Shown here in pieces: positions 12,571 to 27,457 of a stretch of DNA of 34,276 nt. The stretch lies in the NCBI GenBank assembly GCA_009777275.1, contig WRME01000004.1, forward strand, positions 1 through 34,276. The letters run 5' to 3'. The notes below the pieces were generated by a model. The model saw nothing but the letters and a program-made list of their open reading frames with translations. It did not search any database and was not told the origin of the DNA. Source of the DNA: Oscillospiraceae bacterium (GTDB lineage Bacteria > Bacillota > Clostridia > Oscillospirales > Ruminococcaceae). The number at the start of each line of letters is the position of its first letter. The first letter of the stretch is position 1. Both the position numbers and the translations under genes were made by a program.

Positions 12571-12645
12571 CGGGAAAAACACCCGCCGCTGCGGCGGCAC
12601 CCCGACGACAATGGACAGTTGACAATTTACAATGGACAATTACGG
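12571..12645 (+). repeat. Partial, rearranged copy of the 275-bp repeat
   Basis: About 31 nt from CCGCCGCTGCGGCGGCACC into GACGACAAT match copy 2 (near 16106-16136), continuing into the AT-rich ACAGTTGACAAT arm before diverging. The first bases (CGGGAAAAACACCCGCC) match the sequence flanking copy 1 at 286-308, on the opposite strand. So it is a mosaic fragment rather than a clean copy. It begins right after the smc stop codon. Confidence 0.7.
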
Positions 12646-13031
12646 AGGGTCAGATTGATGAATGTTGAAATTTTAACCATTAAAGATAAGATAATCAACG
12701 CTGTTCCTGTTGAAAAGCTTTATTTGTTTGGCTCATATGCAAACGGAACCCCCAACGAAAACAGTGATTATGATTTCTATATGGTCATTCCTAACGATAG
12801 CATACGGCCGCTCGATGCAATAAACAAGGCTTATATGTCAATGCGCGGGTTAAAGCGAAGGCCTGTCGATATATTAGCAGGCACAGCCGATGTTTTTTCT
12901 CGCAGAGCAAAAGGGATTACATTAGAACGCAAAATCGCAAGAGAAGGAGTTGTGTTGTATGAGCGTAAGTAACGAAATGTCCGAATGGATCAAATTGTCC
13001 GAAGAAAAGCAAATTAAAACACGGAGGGTCA
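12642..13031 (+). repeat. 11-nt direct repeats flanking the MNT cassette
   Basis: ACGGAGGGTCA occurs at 12642-12652 ahead of the nucleotidyltransferase gene and again at 13021-13031 ahead of ftsY, 379 nt apart. Both copies serve as Shine-Dalgarno sites. The cassette therefore starts with a duplicate of the ftsY ribosome binding region. Confidence 0.7.
12658..12972 (+). CDS. MNT-type nucleotidyltransferase, orphan antitoxin
   Basis: A 104-residue member of the minimal nucleotidyltransferase fold (pol-beta superfamily). The signature GSYANGTPNENSDYDFYMV gives the G-S and paired D-x-D metal ligands; a third acidic residue is probably in RRPVDILAG. In known MNT/HEPN modules the MNT protein is the antitoxin that adds AMP groups to the HEPN RNase toxin. 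Start ATG 12658 is chosen over the track's TTG 12619 because CGGAGGG lies 8 nt upstream. The gene is more AT-rich than smc and ftsY, consistent with transfer. Its partner survives only as a stub. Confidence 0.8.
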   Translation: MNVEILTIKDKIINAVPVEKLYLFGSYANGTPNENSDYDFYMVIPNDSIRPLDAINKAYMSMRGLKRRPVDILAGTADVFSRRAKGITLERKIAREGVVLYERK

Positions 13032-13066
13032 TATGGGTATATTTAACAAAATTGCGAGCGGGTTGA
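12959..13066 (+). pseudogene. HEPN toxin gene remnant
   Basis: An ATG at 12959 overlaps the end of the MNT gene and has its own GAAGGAG nine bases upstream. It opens a frame reading NEMSEWIKLSEEK, which resembles the start of HEPN-domain partners (typically a W followed by an acidic A/S-EE segment). After about 20 codons the sequence becomes the ftsY ribosome binding site and the frame runs into ftsY, stopping at 13066 after 35 codons. HEPN toxins are normally around 110-140 residues with an RX4-6H motif, absent here. I read it as a 3'-deleted toxin gene; the similarity is short, so identity is tentative. Confidence 0.55.
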
Positions 13067-13953: not shown

Positions 13954-15384
13954 ATGAAAATTTTAAAAAACATATGGCGGGTTATCTGTTACCCTTTGAT
14001 GCACATGGGTGTGATGCAGCTGTTGGCGATCGGATTTATGGTCGTAACAATAATCGGGCTTGTCATTAACAATCCGGGGATGGAGTATGATGAAATAGTA
14101 GAGATTGCAGGGAAAACACTCGTTTCGCTCTCAAATGTGATTATGCTGTTTGCCGTGGTTGTGTCTTTTCTGATAATGTGGCTGATTCTGCGTAAGGAAT
14201 GGCGGCGTGAAGATACATGGAATATCAAGGGGTTTTCTGCGGGTCTGTGCCTGCTCTGTCTCGTTGTTGCGGTTCCGTTAAGTTTGAGCATAAGCGGGAT
14301 TATTCAGTTTCTCCCCTTTGATCGGTTTATTCCTTCCCATGAACAACTGATGGAACAACTGATGGGCAAGAACATATTTGTAGAAATATCGGTTGTGGGC
14401 CTGGCCGTTCCGATAGTTGAGGAACTCATATTCAGAGGGATTGTGCTAAAACGATTCTTGAGAATGTCTATGGCGGTACCGATGGCGATATTCCTGCAAG
14501 CGCTCATGTTCGGCATCTTCCACATGAATATTTTGCAAGGATTTTATACATTCCTGCTGGCGATAATATTAGGACTGGTCTATGTATGGTTCAAGACCGT
14601 TTGGGCTCCGATATTCCTGCATATAGGGTTTAATATGTTCAGCGTGCTGTTATCAAATCTGCCTGATTCCATTCAATCCGATCTTCCCGAACAAACAGTG
14701 CAATCGGATATTGTTTTCGCTGTAATAGTGATTTTGGCAACGGCAATATCGGCCATACTGCTATGGCTGTTATGGATGAATCGGGTCAAGCAGATTCAGA
14801 TTCTTGCCGCTACCAACAACAGGGATAAGATAGAAGAGTTTAAGCGTATATTCAAGCCGCTCGGCTATACCATCGTGACACCCGATGAGCTGGGAATAGA
14901 CATTACCGTAGAAGAAACGGGAGACACATTCGAGCAAAACGCCGCACTCAAGGCAATAGCTTTCCGAAATGTCTCTAACCTGCCTGTTATCGCAGACGAC
15001 AGCGGTCTTGCCATAGATTATATGAACGGTGCTCCTGGCGTACATTCGGCAAAATATTGCGGTGAAAACGCAGGATATGATGTCAAGATGAACGCCATAC
15101 TCGATAATCTGCGGGATCTTCCTATGGAAAAGAGGACGGCGAGATTCATCTGCTGTATCTACTGTATTCTCGGAGAGGGAAAGATTATAACCACAAGCGG
15201 GGTTTGTGAGGGGCATATAGGATACAGACCGCAGGGTCAAAACGGATTTGGATACGACCCGATATTTATAGCGGGCGGCGGATACCTCACAACGGCCGAA
15301 ATGTCATCCGAACAAAAGGATGCTATCAGTCACAGAGGAAAGGCGTTAAGAGAGCTTGAGTATATCCTCAAAACCGTGCAGTGA
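13954..15384 (+). CDS. CPBP intramembrane protease fused to RdgB NTP pyrophosphatase
   Basis: One uninterrupted 476-residue frame contains two proteins normally separate. Residues 1-275 are a membrane domain with roughly eight hydrophobic segments and the CPBP (CAAX-protease/bacteriocin-processing) motifs: EELIFRG (E156, E157, R161), FGIFHMN (H190) and HIGFN (H223). From about 281 to the end is a RdgB/HAM1 inosine/xanthosine triphosphate pyrophosphatase: ILAATNNRDKIEEF, ADDSGLAIDYMNGAPGV, GQNGFGYDPIF and SHRGKALREL. An even number of segments and the basic WMNRVKQ junction place RdgB in the cytoplasm. There is a Met at the junction (14776) but no ribosome binding site before it, so separate translation looks unlikely. 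GAAGGAGAG precedes ATG 13954. rdgB next to nadD is common; the fusion is not. Confidence 0.88.
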   Translation: MKILKNIWRVICYPLMHMGVMQLLAIGFMVVTIIGLVINNPGMEYDEIVEIAGKTLVSLSNVIMLFAVVVSFLIMWLILRKEWRREDTWNIKGFSAGLCLLCLVVAVPLSLSISGIIQFLPFDRFIPSHEQLMEQLMGKNIFVEISVVGLAVPIVEELIFRGIVLKRFLRMSMAVPMAIFLQALMFGIFHMNILQGFYTFLLAIILGLVYVWFKTVWAPIFLHIGFNMFSVLLSNLPDSIQSDLPEQTVQSDIVFAVIVILATAISAILLWLLWMNRVKQIQILAATNNRDKIEEFKRIFKPLGYTIVTPDELGIDITVEETGDTFEQNAALKAIAFRNVSNLPVIADDSGLAIDYMNGAPGVHSAKYCGENAGYDVKMNAILDNLRDLPMEKRTARFICCIYCILGEGKIITTSGVCEGHIGYRPQGQNGFGYDPIFIAGGGYLTTAEMSSEQKDAISHRGKALRELEYILKTVQ

Positions 15385-15398
15385 ATGGGAGGAATCGT

Positions 15399-15998
15399 AT
15401 GAAAACCGCAATTTTCGGCGGGACATTTAACCCTCCTCATGCAGGACACAAAAGGCTTGCTTTAGCGGCGCGTTCCTATGCCGACAAGGTTCTTGTGATA
15501 CCTGCATTTATCCCTCCTCACAAGAAAGAATCGATCGTCTCACCCGAGCATCGGCTGAACATGACAAGGCTTGCTTTTGAGAATACAGATAAAATCGAGG
15601 TAAGCGACATTGAGATCAAAGCCGCAACGGTAAGCTATACTATAGATACACTGGAAAAACTCAAGGACACCCACGGCGAACTGTTCCTGCTTATAGGAGA
15701 CGACCTGATCTTCTCATTCCCCGATTGGCACAGGTATGAAGATATATTAAAACTCGCTAAGCTGCTGGTCTGGAGAAGAACCCGCAAAAAGATCCACAGC
15801 ACCCCCCTTTCGCAGGGATACGGAATCCCCGTCGCCGCTGTTTTTCCAAACTTTGAGCCTATAGAGATTTCATCCGAACAAATCAGGAAGAATATACAGA
15901 GCGGAACTAATCCCGAACAATATCTCGACAGCAAGGTATATGATTATATAAAGGAGAATGGGCTGTACGAACACAGTCACCGCACCCCGCTTTTTTGA
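15399..15998 (+). CDS. nadD: Nicotinate-nucleotide adenylyltransferase
   Basis: Adenylates nicotinate mononucleotide in NAD synthesis. The 199-residue protein opens with AIFGGTFNPPHAGHKRLA, the nucleotidyltransferase GxFxPxHxGH motif, and has FIPPHKKE, FLLIGDDLIFSFPDWHR and the C-terminal ISSEQIRKNIQSG (ISxxxIR motif). ATG 15399 is chosen over GTG 15381 because GGGAGGA lies six bases upstream. It follows the CPBP-RdgB gene closely. The C-terminal tail after ENGLY is short and runs into GC-rich repeat-like DNA; the HD-domain gene yqeK, usually next in this operon, is missing. Confidence 0.95.
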   Translation: MKTAIFGGTFNPPHAGHKRLALAARSYADKVLVIPAFIPPHKKESIVSPEHRLNMTRLAFENTDKIEVSDIEIKAATVSYTIDTLEKLKDTHGELFLLIGDDLIFSFPDWHRYEDILKLAKLLVWRRTRKKIHSTPLSQGYGIPVAAVFPNFEPIEISSEQIRKNIQSGTNPEQYLDSKVYDYIKENGLYEHSHRTPLF

Positions 15999-16015
15999 TA
16001 GCAATCCGCAATAAC

Positions 16016-16045
16016 CACGGTATGCACGGGGGTGCATACCCTACA
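16016..16045 (-). repeat. Short hairpin repeat, TAGGGTA family (reverse)
   Basis: GGTATGCAC (16019-16027) / GTGCATACC (16032-16040) with loop GGGG; on the reverse strand it reads TGTAGGGTATGCAC. Two stem positions differ from the copies at 313 and 8226, again as paired changes. It adjoins repeat copy 2. Confidence 0.7.
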
Positions 16046-16057
16046 CGCCCTCTCAGT

Positions 16058-16333
16058 CGCTGCGGTAACCACGGATGACCGAGGGCGGTCATCCCTACAG
16101 ACCACCCCGCCGCTGCGGCGGCACCCCGACGACAATTAACAGTTGACAATGAACAATTGACAATTATTGTAAATATAGATTTGCTGGCAAAAATAGAATT
16201 AGATTTCTATAATTTCAAGCCCCCGTAACTGTCCATTGTACATTGTTCATTGTCAATTGGCATCATTCCCCTCTGGGGAGGGGTGGCAAACACTCGCAAC
16301 AAAGTTGCGATAGTGTTTGACGGGGTGGTCTGC
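16058..16333 (-). repeat. MITE-like structured repeat, copy 2 (inverted)
   Basis: Reverse complement of 18-292 with very few differences. Terminal inverted repeats CAGACCACCCCG (16098-16109) and CGGGGTGGTCTG (16321-16332) bound a 235-bp core. It fills much of the 537-nt gap between nadD and the first PIN module. The rest of the gap holds the hairpin at 16016, part of the CTCTCAGTCGGC element at about 16343-16364, the TAGGGTA hairpin at 16366-16394 and the promoter at 16457. No gene is credible in the gap. Confidence 0.85.
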
Positions 16334-16365
16334 CCCGAAATGCCCTCTCAGTCGGCGTTGCCGCC

Positions 16366-16394
16366 TGTAGGGTACGAACCCCTGTGCGTACCGT
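16366..16394 (+). repeat. Short hairpin repeat, TAGGGTA family, imperfect
   Basis: GGTACGAAC (16371-16379) / GTGCGTACC (16384-16392), loop CCCT, one stem mismatch relative to the copy at 313-334, with the same TGTAGG and GTCCT flanks. It directly follows the partial CTCTCAGTCGGCGTTGCC element. Confidence 0.65.
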
Positions 16395-16456
16395 CCTTAA
16401 CAAACATTTCGTGATTTTTGTGTATTTCGTGGTTAAAAAAGAACGAACAACCTCTA

Positions 16457-16535: not shown

Positions 16536-16745
16536 ATGTCGGTAAAAGAGCAGTTAATAAATGATATAAAGTTTTTGCCTGAACATACCTTACAGATTAT
16601 CAGTGTTCTTGTAGAAGAATTTGTTATGCTCCACTCAAAAACAAAAGAATCGTTGCGGCCTGTTTTTGGTTCAGGTAAAGGGCAAATGTGGATTGCAGAC
16701 GATTTTGATGCACCGCTTGAGGAATTAAGGGAGTATATGGAATGA
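16536..16745 (+). CDS. Antitoxin, DUF2281/VapB-like
   Basis: A 69-residue protein resembling DUF2281-type antitoxins. The N-terminal part (SVKEQLINDIKFLPEHTLQI) would be the dimer/DNA-binding segment, and the C-terminal part, FGSGKGQMWIADDFDAPLEE, matches the toxin-wrapping tail seen in this group. ATG 16536 follows GTAGGAG. It overlaps the PIN toxin by ATGA, the normal antitoxin-first order, and has its own strong promoter. Base composition is clearly AT-richer than the housekeeping neighbours, suggesting horizontal arrival. Confidence 0.8.
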   Translation: MSVKEQLINDIKFLPEHTLQIISVLVEEFVMLHSKTKESLRPVFGSGKGQMWIADDFDAPLEELREYME

Positions 16746-17116
16746 AAAATCTGCTCGATACACATGCTGTACTATGGTTTTTGAACGGCGAAAAAATGCC
16801 GGAAAACATAAAAGAAATGATAACAGACGGAGAAAATTATATAAGCGTTGTTTCGCTTTGGGAAGTCGCTATCAAAATGAATATAGGCAAGTATACTTTT
16901 AACGGCGGTTTCTCGAAGTTTAGAGAATTAGTAAGAAATAACGGATTTAAATTATTACCGATTAAGGATGAATATATGGAGCAATTGTTCAGATTACCTC
17001 TTATTCATCGTGACCCATTTGACCGTCTGATTATTGCAACTGCGATTGATGAAAAACTGACGCTTATTACCGCAGACGAAAATATACAGAAATATGACGT
17101 AAAATGGGAATGGTGA
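16742..17116 (+). CDS. PIN-domain toxin, VapC-like
   Basis: A 124-residue PIN-fold RNase; VapC-type toxins cleave tRNA or rRNA to stop translation. The four-acid active site is visible: D in LLDTHAVLWFL, E in SLWEVAIK, D in HRDPFDRLIIATA and D in LITADENI. This is the HRDPFDR subgroup that usually pairs with a DUF2281-like antitoxin, as here. Length is standard and the gene looks intact. It sits with its antitoxin between nadD and the LCP gene, at the place where yqeK is normally found. Confidence 0.87.
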   Translation: MKNLLDTHAVLWFLNGEKMPENIKEMITDGENYISVVSLWEVAIKMNIGKYTFNGGFSKFRELVRNNGFKLLPIKDEYMEQLFRLPLIHRDPFDRLIIATAIDEKLTLITADENIQKYDVKWEW

Positions 17117-18329: not shown

Positions 18330-18680
18330 ATGGATTCATTACAAGCGGCAAAGGTTATCGTAAAGGCGCTCGATTCTAAAAAGGCGGAAGACATCAGGGT
18401 TATCGGAATTGGCGAGCTTTCGGTAATCGGCGATTATTTCATCATAGCAAGCGGCAGGAGCGGAGTTCAGGTAAAGGCTCTTGCAGACGAGATCGAAACA
18501 AAGATGAGCGAAAAGGGAGTCACACCAAAGCGAATCGAGGGATACTCCTATGCCAACTGGGTAATTCTCGATTACATCGATGTTATAGTACACCTCTTCC
18601 ACAGCGACACCCGTGAGTTTTATTCGCTCGAAAGACTATGGTCAGACGGAGAACAGATTGACATCGCAAATTTATTATGA
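18330..18680 (+). CDS. rsfS: Ribosomal silencing factor RsfS
   Basis: RsfS binds L14 on the large subunit and blocks subunit joining in starvation. The 116-residue protein shows the family core: KKAEDIRVIGIGELSVIGDYF, IIASGRSGVQVKALADEIE, EGYSYANWVILDYIDVIVHLF and FYSLERLWSD. ATG 18330 follows AAAGGAG. Gene order LCP-rsfS-leuS is normal for Clostridia, but here leuS is pushed 640 nt away by a YafQ-type cassette. The last codons and stop lie within a 24-nt sequence repeated exactly on the far side of that cassette. Confidence 0.95.
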   Translation: MDSLQAAKVIVKALDSKKAEDIRVIGIGELSVIGDYFIIASGRSGVQVKALADEIETKMSEKGVTPKRIEGYSYANWVILDYIDVIVHLFHSDTREFYSLERLWSDGEQIDIANLL

Positions 18681-18708
18681 TAGGATAATATATGGGAGTT
18701 GATGATCT

Positions 18709-18939
18709 ATGGAAACAGCTAATTATAATCTTGCGATTGACCCTGTTATAAAAACAAGTAGGAGACATAAATTTCCGTTTGATGTAAGAGTACCAAATTC
18801 AAAACTTATTCAAGCAATGCAAGAAACCGAACAGATTTTAGAGGAATACGCAAACGGCACTCGCATTTCACAGCCATACACAAATATACACGATATTCTT
18901 CAAGAAATCCTAAACGAGGAGAATGACGACGATGTATGA
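18709..18939 (+). CDS. Antitoxin partner of YafQ-like toxin
   Basis: A 76-residue acidic protein of unrecognised family. The assignment rests on context: it immediately precedes and overlaps a YafQ/RelE-like toxin. The middle segment PNSKLIQAMQETEQILEEYANG resembles the helical toxin-binding part of RelB/DinJ antitoxins, and the C-terminus is very acidic (NEENDDDV). ATG 18709 follows GGGAG with a longish spacing. AT-rich compared with rsfS and leuS. Confidence 0.7.
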   Translation: METANYNLAIDPVIKTSRRHKFPFDVRVPNSKLIQAMQETEQILEEYANGTRISQPYTNIHDILQEILNEENDDDV

Positions 18940-19216
18940 TATTGATCGTTCTGTCAAATCATTTCGTCGAAGTGTTCGCAAGGTTGCCAAACGTGGATAT
19001 GACATATCAAAACTGGAGAATACCATCGAATTATTAGCAGAGGGTAAACCTATGCCGCCTGAATACCAAGATCATTCATTAAAAGGCAAATACATCCGTT
19101 ATCGTGAATGTCATGTAGGCGGGGAGGGTGATTGGTTGTTGATCTATAGAAAAGACCATAGTCGTCTTATCCTTGTTTTGACCGAAACAGGCACTCATTC
19201 GGATTTATTTGAGTAA
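18932..19216 (+). CDS. YafQ/RelE-family mRNA interferase toxin
   Basis: A 94-residue RelE-fold protein; YafQ-type toxins cut mRNA at the ribosomal A site. Recognised by SFRRSVRKVAKRG near the start, LKGKYIRYRECHVGGEGDWLL in the middle (His and the D-W pair of the YafQ active site) and the C-terminal THSDLF with its catalytic histidine. Start ATG 18932 is favoured over the track's 18923 because GAGGAGA sits nine bases upstream of it. It overlaps the antitoxin by 8 nt. Looks intact and therefore probably active. Confidence 0.87.
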   Translation: MYDIDRSVKSFRRSVRKVAKRGYDISKLENTIELLAEGKPMPPEYQDHSLKGKYIRYRECHVGGEGDWLLIYRKDHSRLILVLTETGTHSDLFE

Positions 19217-19230
19217 TTTTATTATACTTT

Positions 19231-19256
19231 AATTCTGCGTCAGTAGGCGCAGAATT
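19231..19256 (+). terminator. Hairpin after the YafQ-like toxin
   Basis: AATTCTGCG (19231-19239) pairs perfectly with CGCAGAATT (19248-19256) around an 8-nt loop. The downstream TGTGGC is not a U-tract, so it may be a weak terminator or an mRNA-stabilising end that isolates the cassette from leuS. Confidence 0.45.
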
Positions 19257-19318
19257 TGTGGCATTACGCAAAATGGTATGACATCGCAAATTTATTATGA
19301 TATAAAGGAATTTTTAAC

Positions 19319-21727
19319 ATGAGTTATGAGTATACGAGGATAGAGAAAAAGTGGCAGGACAGATGGGACGAATTGCAGCCTTTTAAGGCTGTCGACGACT
19401 ATACCCTCCCGAAATTTTATGCGCTCCTTGAGTTTCCATATCCATCGGGGCAGGGACTGCACGTTGGTCATCCCCGGCCCTATACGGCGCTTGATATTGT
19501 AGCGCGAAAACGCCGAATGCAGGGATACAATGTACTCCTGCCTATGGGCTGGGACGCATTCGGTCTGCCTACAGAGAACTATGCCATACAAAATAAAATA
19601 CATCCCAAGAAGGTTACAAAGGATAATATAGCGAGGTTTAAATCCCAACTAAAGTCTCTGGGGCTTTCATTCGACTGGAGCCGTGAGGTTGATACAACCG
19701 ACCCCGCCTATTACAAATGGACACAGTGGATATTCCTGCAATTATTCAAGCAGGGTCTTGCCTATAAAAAAGAAATGAAGGTCAACTGGTGCAGCGAGTG
19801 TAAGGTTGTTCTTGCCAATGAAGAGGTTGTAAACGGTCAATGCGAGCGTTGCGGAGGTGAGATAGTCCGCAGGGTAAAGTCGCAATGGATGCTTGCCATA
19901 ACCGAATATGCACAGAAGCTCATAGACGGTCTTGCCGATGTTGATTATATCAACAGCGTCAGGCTGTCTCAGATAAACTGGATAGGACGTTCCGAGGGAG
20001 CAAGGGTTGTTTTTGCAACGACAGCGGGTGATGATATTACCGTCTTCACAACACGTCCCGACACCCTTTTCGGTGCTACCTATATGGTAATCTCACCCGA
20101 GCATCCGCTTGTGGAAAAATGGGCCGACAAAATAACCAACATACAGCAGGTGCGTGATTATCAGGAGAGTTCGTCAAGAAAGTCGGATTTTGAGCGGACC
20201 GAAATAGCCAAGGATAAAACAGGGGTCAGACTTGAGGGAATCAGCGGTATAAACCCCGTAAACGATAGCGAGATACCTATATATATATCTGATTATGTTC
20301 TCATGTCATACGGCACGGGCGCTATAATGGCGGTACCGGGACATGATACACGAGATTACGAATTTGCCAAGACCTTAGGACTTCCTATAATCGAGGTTGT
20401 CAGCGGAGGAGACATAACAAAAGAAGCATTTACCGACTGTGACACGGGAATCATGGTCAATTCCGGTTTTCTAAACGGTATGAGCGTACAGGATGCCAAG
20501 GAAAAAATCACATCCTTTTTAGAGCAAAACGGTAAGGGTGAGGCTAATGTTACCTACAAACTGCGTGACTGGATTTTTGCCCGCCAACGCTATTGGGGCG
20601 AACCTATACCCATCGTGTTTTGCGACAAATGCGGAACCGTACCTCTCGATGAAAGCGAACTGCCCCTAACACTGCCTGAGGTTCAGACATATGAACCCAC
20701 AGGTGACGGAAGTTCTCCGCTTGCCGCTATAGAGGATTTTGTCAACACCACCTGCCCAAGCTGCGGAGGAGCGGCACGCAGAGAGACCGATACAATGCCG
20801 CAATGGGCGGGATCATCCTGGTATTTCTTGCGATACTGCGACCCGAATAACAACGACATTCTTGCTTCAAAGCAGGCACTCGACTACTGGATGCCGGTTG
20901 ATTGGTACAACGGCGGCATGGAGCATAACACCCTTCATCTGCTCTATTCACGGTTTTGGCACAAGTTCTTGTACGACATAGGAGCGGTCAGCTGTCCCGA
21001 ACCCTATTCCAAACGCACAAGCCACGGAATGATACTGGGCGAAAACAACGAGAAGATGAGCAAATCTAGAGGTAATGTGGTTAATCCCGATGATATTATC
21101 CGTGATTACGGAGCCGATACAATGCGGCTATATGAGATGTTTATCGGCGATTTTGAAAAGGCCGCCCCCTGGAACTCAACCTCGATAAAGGGATGCAAGC
21201 GATTTCTCGACAGAGTATGGAATCTGCAGTCAATCTCTTCGGACAAAGCAGGATACTCCGCCGCTCTTGAGACAAAATTTCACAAGACGATAAAAAAGGT
21301 TTCTGCCGATATAGATTCGCTGAAATTCAACACAGCAATATCGGCAATGATGACCCTGCTTAACGATATATATGACACAGGAACCGTCACTAAGGACGAA
21401 CTGCGTGATTTTATAATACTGCTAAGTCCGTTTGCTCCCCATATATGCGAAGAACTCTACGAACTTTGCGGCTTTGGAGGAATGGTACACGAGCAGAAGT
21501 GGCTGACATATGATGAGGATAAGTGTATAGATGATTCGGCCGAGATCGCCGTTCAGATAAACGGCAAGATCATATCCCGTATCACAGTGAGCATGGATGA
21601 TGATGAGGACAGCGTTGTTGCCGTCGCATTAGCAGACCCAAAGGTTGCCGCTGCTGCCGCTGCGGGCAAAAACATTATTAAAAAAATCTATGTTAAAGGA
21701 AGTCTGCTTAACATAGTGGCGAAGTGA
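19319..21727 (+). CDS. leuS: Leucyl-tRNA synthetase
   Basis: Class I synthetase charging tRNA-Leu. At 802 residues it has the usual bacterial length. The HIGH-type motif is [12 protein letters not shown] near residue 48, a zinc-binding pair of CxxC motifs occurs around 157-180 (CSECK, CERCGG), the CP1 editing domain is represented by [14 protein letters not shown] and [15 protein letters not shown], and KMSKSRGN lies near 579. The C-terminal anticodon domain follows. ATG 19319 follows AAAGGAA. Neither a T-box leader nor another riboswitch is visible in the 102 nt upstream, which derive from the inserted cassette and the duplicated rsfS end. Confidence 0.97.
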
Positions 21728-21774
21728 TCTCTTTGAGGATTTAAGAGCATAATATTTTATAGGAGGCGTTTATT

Positions 21775-21975
21775 TTGGCAGGAACAATAAATTTTAACAT
21801 TGAGGTTGCTCAAGATATACAAGATCAAATCGAAGAGAGCATGACAATGTTTAAAGCAAAGGAATCTCTAAAAAGTATGCAGGAACAATCGATGAATAAC
21901 AAGGTTTCAGAAATGAGCTTAGAAGAAATAAATGCCGAAATTTCGGCCTATAGACAGGAACGGTTAAATGCGTAG
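21775..21975 (+). CDS. Antitoxin of COG1569-type PIN module
   Basis: A 66-residue protein with no family I can name. It is largely helical and charged (FNIEVAQDIQDQIEESMTMF, then SLEEINAEISAYRQER), consistent with a small antitoxin whose C-terminus binds the PIN toxin that it overlaps by 8 nt. The start is TTG 21775, following ATAGGAGG at good spacing. Placed between leuS and metK in the same orientation; AT-rich. Confidence 0.65.
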   Translation: MAGTINFNIEVAQDIQDQIEESMTMFKAKESLKSMQEQSMNNKVSEMSLEEINAEISAYRQERLNA

Positions 21976-22369
21976 AATAGTTGTCGATACGAATGTTTTA
22001 ATTTCTTCTGCTATTTCTGATAAAGGAAGTCCTGCAAAAATCATGGATTTAGTGCTGGATGGGTTGATAAAAACTTGTTACAGCCATCAAATAATATTGG
22101 AATACAAAGAGGTTCTTTCAAGACCGAAATTTGACTTTGATTACAAAAAACAACAAAGTCTTATAGCGGGAATAAAACGATCCGGAATTTTAATTGATCC
22201 CGATACAAGCACAATAAAAATACCGGATGAAAGCGACCGTGTTTTTTATGACACTGCATACGAGAGCGGCTCTATCCTTGTAACGGGTAATATAAAGCAT
22301 TATCCCGATAAATGTTTTATAATGACACCTACAGAATACATATATAATATTTATAATATTTTAAAATAG
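21968..22369 (+). CDS. PIN-domain toxin, COG1569-like
   Basis: A 133-residue PIN-fold protein, predicted RNase toxin. It begins [19 protein letters not shown], with the first catalytic aspartate, and has [13 protein letters not shown], the acidic [15 protein letters not shown] and the [10 protein letters not shown] segment that marks this subgroup, which differs from the VapC-like protein at 16742. The gene looks complete and overlaps its antitoxin by 8 nt. metK begins 14 nt downstream. AT-rich relative to leuS and metK. Confidence 0.83.
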
Positions 22370-22383
22370 GAGGAAGATTTATT

Positions 22384-24690: not shown

Positions 24691-25850
24691 CAAATAGAAT
24701 CATTCTCGGAAAATACGGTGAAATTGTTCTAAAAGGACTAAACAAGAGGGTTTTTGAAGAGATATTAGTAAACAATATAAAGCAGAGGCTTGTATCGCTA
24801 AAAGGTCAATACCTGAGTGATTACAGCATAAAGAGAGCGCAGTCTACCCTTTATATAGACCTCGACCCCGATGCTGATTTTGAGCAGACCGCCGCCGAAA
24901 CGGCTAAGGTTTTCGGGCTTGCGTCTGTATGCGTTGCCTATAAGGCTAAAAAGGACATGGAGCATATAAAAGAGATTGCGGCAGACTGCTTTAGAGATCA
25001 GCTGAGTATGGCAGGTTCCTTTAAGATAGCGGCAAAGCGATCGGATAAAGAATTTGCATACAACTCCCCTGAGATATGCAATATAATAGGCGGTCATATA
25101 TTAGACAAGTTCCCGCATCTTCAGGTTGATGTACACACCCCCGACATAACCGTCCATGTTGAGATACGAGATTTTGGGGCGTATATACACGGTGATGCCA
25201 TTCCTGCGGCAGGGGGTATGCCTGTCGGCTCAAGCGGCAGGGTGCTGCTCATGCTGTCGGGAGGTATAGACAGTCCCGTTGCGGGATACCTGATGGCAAA
25301 GAGGGGTCTGACACTTGAGGCGGTGCATTTTGCAAGCCCGCCCTATACGGGGCCAAAGTCGCTCGAGAAGGTCAAGAACCTCTGCAAAGCGCTCATGCCC
25401 TATACAGGTGAGATAAAACTGCACATTGTAGGATTTACAGAAATGCAGGAGGCCATAAACAAACACTGCCGAGACGATCTGTCGACCGTTATAACCCGCC
25501 GCATGATGATAAAGGCCGCCAATGCAATCGCAGCCGAGTCAGATTGTGATGCAATGGTTACGGGAGAAAGTCTTGCTCAGGTTGCCAGCCAAACCCTGCG
25601 TGCCATCAGATGCACCGACCAAGCGGCAGAGATTCCTGTGCTGCGTCCGGTTGTGGGAATGGATAAAAGAGAGATCGTTGATATAGCAAGAAGAATCGGA
25701 ACATATGAAATCTCGACACTACCCTATGAAGACTGCTGTACCGTCTTCACCCCAAAACACCCGAGGACAAAACCCGAATTAAAATATGTCCTGCAAGAAG
25801 AAAGCAAATTCGATTATGATGGAATATTAAGAAGAGGTGATTCAGTTTGA
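24687..25850 (+). CDS. thiI: tRNA 4-thiouridine synthase ThiI
   Basis: Adenylates U8 of tRNA and installs sulfur. Layout of the 387-residue protein: N-terminal ferredoxin-like domain (ILGKYGEIVLKGLNKRVFE), THUMP domain (about 60-165), PP-loop ATPase with LLMLSGGIDSPVAGYLMAKRG near 187-207, and the conserved DCC cysteines in PYEDCCTVF. The C-terminal rhodanese domain of the E. coli enzyme is absent, typical of Firmicutes, which explains the adjacent dedicated desulfurase. ATGA overlap with that gene; its own stop overlaps the TTG start of the next. Confidence 0.95.
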   Translation: MTNRIILGKYGEIVLKGLNKRVFEEILVNNIKQRLVSLKGQYLSDYSIKRAQSTLYIDLDPDADFEQTAAETAKVFGLASVCVAYKAKKDMEHIKEIAADCFRDQLSMAGSFKIAAKRSDKEFAYNSPEICNIIGGHILDKFPHLQVDVHTPDITVHVEIRDFGAYIHGDAIPAAGGMPVGSSGRVLLMLSGGIDSPVAGYLMAKRGLTLEAVHFASPPYTGPKSLEKVKNLCKALMPYTGEIKLHIVGFTEMQEAINKHCRDDLSTVITRRMMIKAANAIAAESDCDAMVTGESLAQVASQTLRAIRCTDQAAEIPVLRPVVGMDKREIVDIARRIGTYEISTLPYEDCCTVFTPKHPRTKPELKYVLQEESKFDYDGILRRGDSV

Positions 25851-27457
25851 CCAAAGATTATTTACAAACCTTTGAGCCAAAGGTTATAGATGATTTGAAG
25901 ATACTTACCGATATTTTGCAGGACAGACGTGTCAAGATAGCTACAGCCGAGAGCTGCACGGCAGGACTGCTTGCGGGACTGCTAACCGCATCTCCCGGAG
26001 CGAGCAAATATTTTGACATGGGTCTTATCTGCTATTCCAACCAATCTAAGACCGAGCTGCTGGGTGTTCCTGTGTCGGCACTGGAGGAACACGGAGCCGT
26101 TAGCGAGACGGTTGCCGCTATGATGGCCGAGGCGGTAAGGGTAAAATCCGGAGCCAATATAGGGGTAAGCATAACCGGAATCGCAGGGCCCGGAGGAGGT
26201 ACCGAGGATAAGCCGGTGGGAACGGTATATGCCGCAATCAGCATACCGTCAAAAATGTGGGTGTCCAAGATAGAACTGAGCGGGCAGGATCTCACGAGAG
26301 CGGGCATAAGACGGGAAACGGTTGCGGAGGTTGTGGGTATGCTAAAGAGCCTCTCGACAGGCAATGCCGACGACAACTTTGCCGACTATGGTGAGCAGCA
26401 AGAGAGAGAGCCTGTCAAAAAGGGCATTAAAGGCAGATTAGTGGGTATAGTAAAAACGATAATACCCTGGAAGGGCGACCGTCCTGCCGAGATAGTACCC
26501 AAATGTATATTTATAGCGGCCATTATCCTTTTTGTCTTCAGCATTGCCTATATATCAAACTATGTCCGTATCAATTACACATCGGGAGCCGCCCACGATC
26601 TGCACATCGATGATATAGAAAGAACTCAGCCTCCTGAGCTGGTAGCACAGCTTCCTGCGGGTTATCTTGAGAAGTTCGCAACATTATACAGCCAGAACAA
26701 AGACATTGCGGGATGGATAGACATTCCCGGAACGGCTATCAGGTACCCCGTTGTCAAGACGACAAACAACTCCTTTTATCTTGATAACGATTTCTTTAAA
26801 CGGCCCAACCCTTACGGAGTTCCGTTCATGGACTACAGAAACAAGGTAGGCAGACAGGGTCAGCTGAGCCAAAACACCATGCTGCACGGACACGCTGTTC
26901 GGGTCAATACCCATTTCAATCAGCTAACCAGCTATGACAGGGTTTCTTTCTATAAAGAAAATCCCATCATCACCTTTGATACCGTCTATGAGGAAATGAA
27001 GTGGGTGGTTATAGGCGCATATTTGGTTACTGTCCTAGAAAAAGACGGGCCTGTCTTTAGGTACCACGATGTTGTGGATACCACAAGCAGATGGCATTTC
27101 GATTGGTATGTCAATCAGATCAAAATGCGTTCGGTCATTACAACAAACGTCGATGTCAGGCATACCGACAAACTCTTGACGCTCTCGACCTGTGCGTATA
27201 ACTTAGGACGCAACACCGATGCCCGCTATGTAGTAGTAGCAAGGCTCCTGCGTCCGAATGAAGACCCCAGTGACAAATCTATAGGGGCAAGAGCTATCCA
27301 AAACCCCGAGCCGTGGAGACCCGATATATGGTATACACGCAACAACTCTGTTATGCCTGAGCGTTTTCGCAATACACCTGCGGTATACCCGGGTGATCCC
27401 GTCAATCCCGGAAACGACCGCCCCCCTGTTGATTTAAACCCTGATATAATACAGTAG
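25847..27457 (+). CDS. PncC (CinA C-terminal) amidase fused to class B sortase
   Basis: One continuous 536-residue frame holds two normally unrelated enzymes. Residues about 20-168 are a nicotinamide-nucleotide amidase of the CinA C-terminal/PncC family: TAESCTAGLLAGLL, GLICYSNQSKTELLGV, SITGIAGPGGGTEDKPVGTVY. A charged linker leads to one membrane segment (about 219-238, CIFIAAIILFVFSIAYISNY). Residues 270-470 form a sortase of class B type: IAGWIDIPGTAIRYPV, the His in MLHGHAV (H349), the Cys in TLSTC (C449) and the Arg in DARYVVVARL (R460). A Pro/Asn-rich tail follows. Topology fits: amidase inside, sortase outside. TTG 25847 has GAAGAGGTG eight bases upstream and overlaps the thiI stop. 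PncC would recycle NMN to nicotinate mononucleotide, feeding NadD; no sortase substrate motif is present in the window. Confidence 0.9.
   Translation: MTKDYLQTFEPKVIDDLKILTDILQDRRVKIATAESCTAGLLAGLLTASPGASKYFDMGLICYSNQSKTELLGVPVSALEEHGAVSETVAAMMAEAVRVKSGANIGVSITGIAGPGGGTEDKPVGTVYAAISIPSKMWVSKIELSGQDLTRAGIRRETVAEVVGMLKSLSTGNADDNFADYGEQQEREPVKKGIKGRLVGIVKTIIPWKGDRPAEIVPKCIFIAAIILFVFSIAYISNYVRINYTSGAAHDLHIDDIERTQPPELVAQLPAGYLEKFATLYSQNKDIAGWIDIPGTAIRYPVVKTTNNSFYLDNDFFKRPNPYGVPFMDYRNKVGRQGQLSQNTMLHGHAVRVNTHFNQLTSYDRVSFYKENPIITFDTVYEEMKWVVIGAYLVTVLEKDGPVFRYHDVVDTTSRWHFDWYVNQIKMRSVITTNVDVRHTDKLLTLSTCAYNLGRNTDARYVVVARLLRPNEDPSDKSIGARAIQNPEPWRPDIWYTRNNSVMPERFRNTPAVYPGDPVNPGNDRPPVDLNPDIIQ

Follow-up and report, generated by a model that had tools for sequence, protein, structure and literature searches.

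A toxin-antitoxin (TA) pair of the YafQ type that lies between rsfS and leuS in an Oscillospiraceae genome probably entered this junction by a sequence-unspecific event that copied 24 bp of the target, that is, by an insertion with a long target duplication. The footprint that this reading explains best consists of an exact duplication, a cassette that holds a TA pair alone, the absence of the cassette in relatives, and the recurrence of the same arrangement with other TA types. The duplications are long and variable, exceeding the usual target duplications of transposons, and the addiction modules carry no mobility genes between the repeats. The stretch of DNA analyzed (34,276 nucleotides; "the window") corresponds to contig 4 of a genome of 1.8 Mb, which is assembled in 186 contigs.

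The YafQ cassette between rsfS and leuS

An intact rsfS gene ends in a sequence, TGACATCGCAAATTTATTATGATA, that comprises its final seven codons, the stop codon, and two further bases, and this 24-nt sequence is repeated without mismatch just upstream of leuS at a spacing of 620 nt, as an earlier note on this DNA had described (Table 1). For a 24-nt repeat, zero matches are expected by chance with up to three mismatches allowed, and a search of the whole 1.8-Mb genome at the same tolerance found TGACATCGCAAATTTATTATGATA at two places only. The sequence is therefore not a dispersed repeat; this explanation, whose confirmation the note had held would speak against its proposal, was rejected. Removal of the cassette together with one repeat copy leaves the rsfS stop codon, TATAAAGGAATTTTTAAC, and the ATG of leuS, which is the normal short junction that the note had expected.

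The 596-bp insert holds two open reading frames of note, an antitoxin and a toxin that overlap by 17 nt, and nothing else was found between the repeats; in particular, no recombinase gene was present among the open reading frames there, in agreement with the note on both counts. In a profile search the toxin scored 100.1 bits against PF15738 (cut-off, 30), while its score under TIGR00053 fell below the cut-off of that model. The toxin is 40% identical to E. coli YafQ, and H51, H64, D70, W71, H92, and F96 are invariant in the alignment. These residues align with H50, H63, D67, W68, H87, and F91 of E. coli YafQ, which we take to be catalytic. Judged from a profile score above the cut-off and from the active-site residues, the protein is assigned to the YafQ family. 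Homologues of the weakly RelB/DinJ-like antitoxin are paired with YafQ toxins in two genomes (G161 and G394). The promoter-like sequence across the left junction is a weak candidate that could drive the antitoxin, sites of that kind being common by chance (2.8 expected in the shuffled region). In the 3' tail of the cassette a hairpin was read from the sequence, and the terminator scan did not flag it.

The G+C content of the insert (38%, against 47% in the window) is in keeping with a foreign origin. In a search for a vehicle, no match was found in phages. Since the nearest plasmid-borne relatives of the toxin are at most 58% identical to it, there is no donor among them.

Table 1. Features of the window and repeat-flanked units elsewhere in the genome. 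Positions are those of the window unless a contig is named.
Feature	Location	Strand	Basis or flanking repeat
MNT-type nucleotidyltransferase cassette, smc-ftsY	12642..13034	+	near-copy of ftsY ribosome-site region (14 nt, 1 mismatch) at both ends
rsfS (ribosome silencing factor), intact	18330..18680	+	Pfam RsfS 5.4e-34; NCBIfam rsfS equivalog 4.9e-34
Promoter-like TTGACA-17-TAGGAT, TG ahead of second hexamer, across left junction	18658..18686	+	weak
24-nt direct repeat TGACATCGCAAATTTATTATGATA, copy 1, rsfS 3' end	18659..18682	+	exact repeat
Antitoxin ORF, 76 aa, weakly RelB/DinJ-like	18709..18939	+	NCBIfam RelB_DinJ E=0.026, below cut-off
YafQ-family mRNA interferase toxin, 97 aa, intact	18923..19216	+	Pfam YafQ_toxin 8.7e-29
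8-bp hairpin ATTCTGCG-N8-CGCAGAAT, 3' tail of cassette	19232..19255	+	read from sequence
24-nt direct repeat TGACATCGCAAATTTATTATGATA, copy 2	19279..19302	+	exact repeat
leuS (leucyl-tRNA synthetase), next gene downstream	19319..21727	+	
PIN-domain toxin pair, leuS-metK	21749..22373	+	near-copies (indel) of metK upstream/ribosome-site region on both sides
YafQ pair	rsfS-leuS, window		24-nt repeat
VapBC	C6, between glnQ and mtnN		23-nt repeat
VapBC	C51, after permease gene		repeat of at least 17 nt
HicBA	C56		repeat of at least 17 nt
HigB/Gp49-type pair	C19, upstream of rplS		repeat of at least 17 nt
MNT-HEPN	C31		repeat of at least 17 nt
DNA methyltransferase	L149 8199-9244 (G000:C52), between cupin and acyl-CoA ligase genes	-	17-nt repeat
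VapBC	C97, outside scanned part, between gyrA and proS		21-nt repeat

On the syntenic contig of G001, a genome of the same genus, rsfS and leuS overlap by 4 nt and no cassette is present; the MNT and VapBC modules that lie upstream of rsfS in the window are absent from that contig as well. In relatives that keep the two genes side by side, the intergenic distance mostly ranges from -4 to about 55 nt, and the larger gaps contain other sequence and no YafQ. Because little or no space separates rsfS from leuS in relatives, the YafQ cassette is an insertion, and the view of the earlier note that rsfS stayed intact through duplication of its 3' end is supported. No relative yielded an empty allele that carries exactly this 24-mer, the closest RsfS proteins found being about 64% identical, and the rsfS tail is strongly variable between genomes, even within the genus. 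From these comparisons we infer an empty site that would have carried a single 24-mer. The note had also suggested a search for the same cassette at other rsfS ends, and none turned up at the rsfS loci read in 29 relatives or in another 39 genomes.

Allelic exchange is common, and the cassette might instead have come by homologous recombination from a conspecific strain that carried it at rsfS-leuS, the duplication having arisen earlier and elsewhere. The repeats, being identical, look recent, as such an exchange would allow; however, this account would only place the founding event in a different strain, no conspecific strain with the cassette at rsfS-leuS was found in the relatives searched, and we regard it as quite unlikely.

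Several other features of the window were recorded. A VapBC module at 16536-17116 also lies between core genes. The region 15998-16440 belongs to a family of dispersed intergenic repeats whose modules include CCGCCGCTGCGGCGG and GCCCTCTCAGTCGGCGTTGCCGCC; members occur on many contigs across the genome and often lie close to the end of a contig. By eye, 13954-15384 appears to encode a fusion of a CPBP-type membrane protease with an RdgB-like nucleotidase (the RdgB-like gene stands alone in G001), and 25847-27457 an apparent fusion of a CinA-like domain with a class B-like sortase.

Repeat-flanked modules in the genome and the family

Exact direct repeats were scanned in 1.19 Mb of the 1.8-Mb genome, and rare pairs that were 17 nt or longer and spaced 250-1600 nt apart were retained. 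This census returned 49 rare repeat pairs, of which 13 were isolated after removal of tandem gene copies: three with a spacing of about 260-300 nt, one in a repeat-rich gene region, and nine others. TA modules lie between the copies of six of these nine isolated intergenic repeats, and they belong to the YafQ, VapBC, HicBA, HigBA, and MNT-HEPN types. A seventh repeat surrounds a DNA methyltransferase gene, and the last two lie around an MFS-like transporter and around a segment adjoining a serine recombinase gene. Outside the scanned part, a further VapBC module is flanked by a repeat between gyrA and proS, an adjacency that is not conserved in relatives. Genes in the repeat-flanked units match the PIN, HicA (just below the cut-off), Gp49, nucleotidyltransferase, and N6/N4 methylase families; the neighboring glnQ, mtnN, gyrA, proS, permease, asnS, and subunit genes were named by eye from their translations. 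The same anatomy thus recurs around unrelated TA modules at unrelated genes, which supports the second of the two options in the note, a duplication-mediated insertion. In G001, half of which was covered, no TA module with such repeats was seen among the inspected repeat pairs. Two further observations were made in passing: a 1.4-kb region beside a serine recombinase gene is bounded by a 28-nt palindromic repeat, TTTTATAGAATACAATCTATAAAAGGGG (L097 1873-3364, G000:C2), and a paralogous cupin-ligase gene pair on C32 (L129) stands without the DNA methyltransferase.

The genome is fragmented and the repeat at rsfS is known from the assembly alone, which could point to an assembly artefact or a chance repeat in a metagenome-derived contig. 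Against this, the chance expectation for a 24-nt repeat is zero, and six further TA loci of this genome, as well as relatives whose assemblies are independent, show the same anatomy, making such an origin extremely improbable.

Across the family, repeats of at least 18 nt were found near seven of 28 VapBC loci (three of the nine loci here and four of 19 in relatives); in G161, the repeat surrounds a second VapBC module that adjoins the one searched. The family has about 45 YafQ loci, and besides the rsfS-leuS cassette two of these carry repeats of 17 nt or more; one of the two lies within a TA array. Repeats of at least 17 nt occur at 0.5% of random positions in this genome and 0.3% in a same-genus genome, rates that come from few contigs, which hold repetitive genes. 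No clear repeat was found at many TA loci of this genome, for example at six of the nine VapBC and three of the four YafQ loci, and the TA loci of E. coli K-12 (MG1655), taken as a positive test, showed the footprint in none of nine cases. Age and decay could be the cause of repeat-less TA loci. As judged from these counts, the footprint is strongly enriched at TA modules here, though not universal. The nine VapC toxins of this genome (G000) belong to one family, members of which were found in only 12 of 249 family genomes searched. On a contig of G161 (L083, G161:C16), short co-directional TA cassettes form an array in which pieces recur and antitoxin 5' ends are duplicated.

Duplication lengths across loci were 17, 18, 19, 21, 21, 22, 23, 24, 33, 37, and about 57-80 nt, and in five related genomes VapBC and YafQ loci had duplications of 18 to about 80 nt. 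The duplicated piece is usually a control element of the junction that the neighbors need, be it a promoter or terminator, a ribosome site, or a start or stop codon. The repeat between glnQ and mtnN comprises the glnQ stop codon with the ribosome site and start of mtnN, such that copy 1 starts the antitoxin and copy 2 starts mtnN, and that between gyrA and proS comprises the final six gyrA codons and the stop, the proS ribosome site included. At a VapBC locus in G080, an 18-nt repeat corresponds to the junction at which one subunit gene stops and the next starts, with the antitoxin start lying within copy 1 and the stop codon of the toxin within copy 2. Upstream of asnS in G164, about 78 nt with terminator-like and promoter-like stretches are duplicated around VapBC with three mismatches, and in G128 the 33-nt terminator-like hairpin that follows an upstream vapC is duplicated around a YafQ pair. 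The duplications at C19 (rplS), in G121, and in G161 are intergenic sequence without an assigned role. Within the window, the near-repeats at the MNT cassette possibly represent a decayed duplication, and the near-copies around the PIN-domain pair may be another.

Routes of insertion

The ends of eight tested cassettes share no common motif, and terminal inverted repeats in these cassettes were not above those of shuffled sequences, with one marginal case (P = 0.048). Target sequences are unrelated between loci and have no common core, and the insertions are single and scattered over unrelated loci. The lack of common ends, the unrelated targets, and the variable lengths fit the footprint of a long target duplication and speak against both an att recombinase and a classical transposon.

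The earlier note had compared the event with site-specific integrators at tRNA ends. In such a case a recombinase of the tyrosine or serine type, supplied in trans, would have integrated the cassette as a nonautonomous element at the 3' end of rsfS, or the cassette would be what is left of a larger integrative element between attL and attR. The repeat does cover and restore a gene 3' end, as att sites do, and a serine recombinase gene is present elsewhere in this genome. However, the rsfS tail is not conserved even within the genus, the targets of the other TA insertions are unrelated, differ in length (17 to about 80 nt), and have no common core, the cassettes share no ends, and TGACATCGCAAATTTATTATGATA has no exact match among 2.9 million viral contigs. 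The analogy is not supported, and site-specific integration, for which neither a recombinase nor an att core was found, was rejected on the unrelated targets and the nonconserved rsfS tail as very unlikely.

Transposition by some transposase acting in trans that makes long target duplications was also considered. Target duplications of the IS1202 group are about 24-29 bp, and in this genome repeats of 17-24 nt are common around units of about 450-830 bp. Against a transposase stand the lack of clear terminal inverted repeats and of a common end motif in the eight cassettes, a duplication length that varies from 17 to about 80 nt, and the different genes carried by every cassette examined. The cassettes do not show the terminal inverted repeats or common ends of an insertion sequence or MITE, and we consider transposition of this kind unlikely.

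Under the preferred reading of a sequence-unspecific insertion, short incoming DNA would join the chromosome by illegitimate recombination, through end joining at offset breaks or template switching, and selection would then retain those events that leave both neighbors intact. The insertions would lie mostly at gene junctions because both essential neighbors are spared only where the duplication supplies a second stop, start, ribosome site, promoter, or terminator, and the TA pair would be kept because its loss is toxic. In tight operons the cassette may borrow the host junction, either the antitoxin taking its start from the duplicated ribosome site or start codon, or the toxin ending at the duplicated stop codon. 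An enzyme with a long, loose stagger is a possible agent. More tentatively, and with considerable doubt, a single machinery might move minimal addiction cassettes, comprising many TA families and a DNA methyltransferase, into junctions, copying 17-80 bp of the target while the neighbors keep their control elements.

Relation to known systems

Restriction-modification systems are described in PMC3874152 and PMC1643837 as inserting with long, variable target duplications (Nobusato et al. 2000, Gene 259:99; Furuta et al. 2010; both cited in PMC3874152), the duplications being in the order of 100 bp (PMC3874152). The present loci resemble these insertions in consisting of an addiction module without a mobility gene and with a long direct repeat of variable length derived from the target. 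They differ in that the modules are type II TA pairs and that the duplications, which in most cases measure 17-24 nt but can reach about 80 nt, fall on intercistronic control elements. In the literature searched, long target duplications were found for restriction-modification systems and none for TA modules; such a duplication has apparently not been described before for TA modules.

In E. coli, TA pairs absent from sister strains lie between core genes, namely, mazEF in relA-mazG, yafNO in dinB-yafP, and ccdO157 in folA-apaH (PMC7167474). The YafQ cassette shares this placement between core genes but is flanked by a duplication, which was found at none of the nine MG1655 loci. As in the YafQ/DinJ family, the toxin has the conserved motifs and the antitoxin is upstream and overlapping, whereas this antitoxin is only weakly RelB/DinJ-like. 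With cis-mobilizable or att-flanked integrative elements the cassette shares direct repeats that restore a gene 3' end; it differs from them in having no conserved att core and no recombinase, with other cassettes at unrelated targets.

How TA pairs move and integrate was still described as unelucidated in a 2020 review (PMC7167474). Readable boundaries of recent-looking insertions, involving unrelated TA families in several genomes, now provide a testable footprint for TA integration and link the mobility of these modules to the long target duplications known from restriction-modification genes. Such a duplication explains how a selfish pair could enter a tight essential operon, such as rsfS-leuS or gyrA-proS, without harm. 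Were a single machinery at work, it would represent a general route by which TA modules colonize operons in this bacterial family. The recurrence with unrelated TA pairs suggests how these pairs settle in chromosomes without a transposase.
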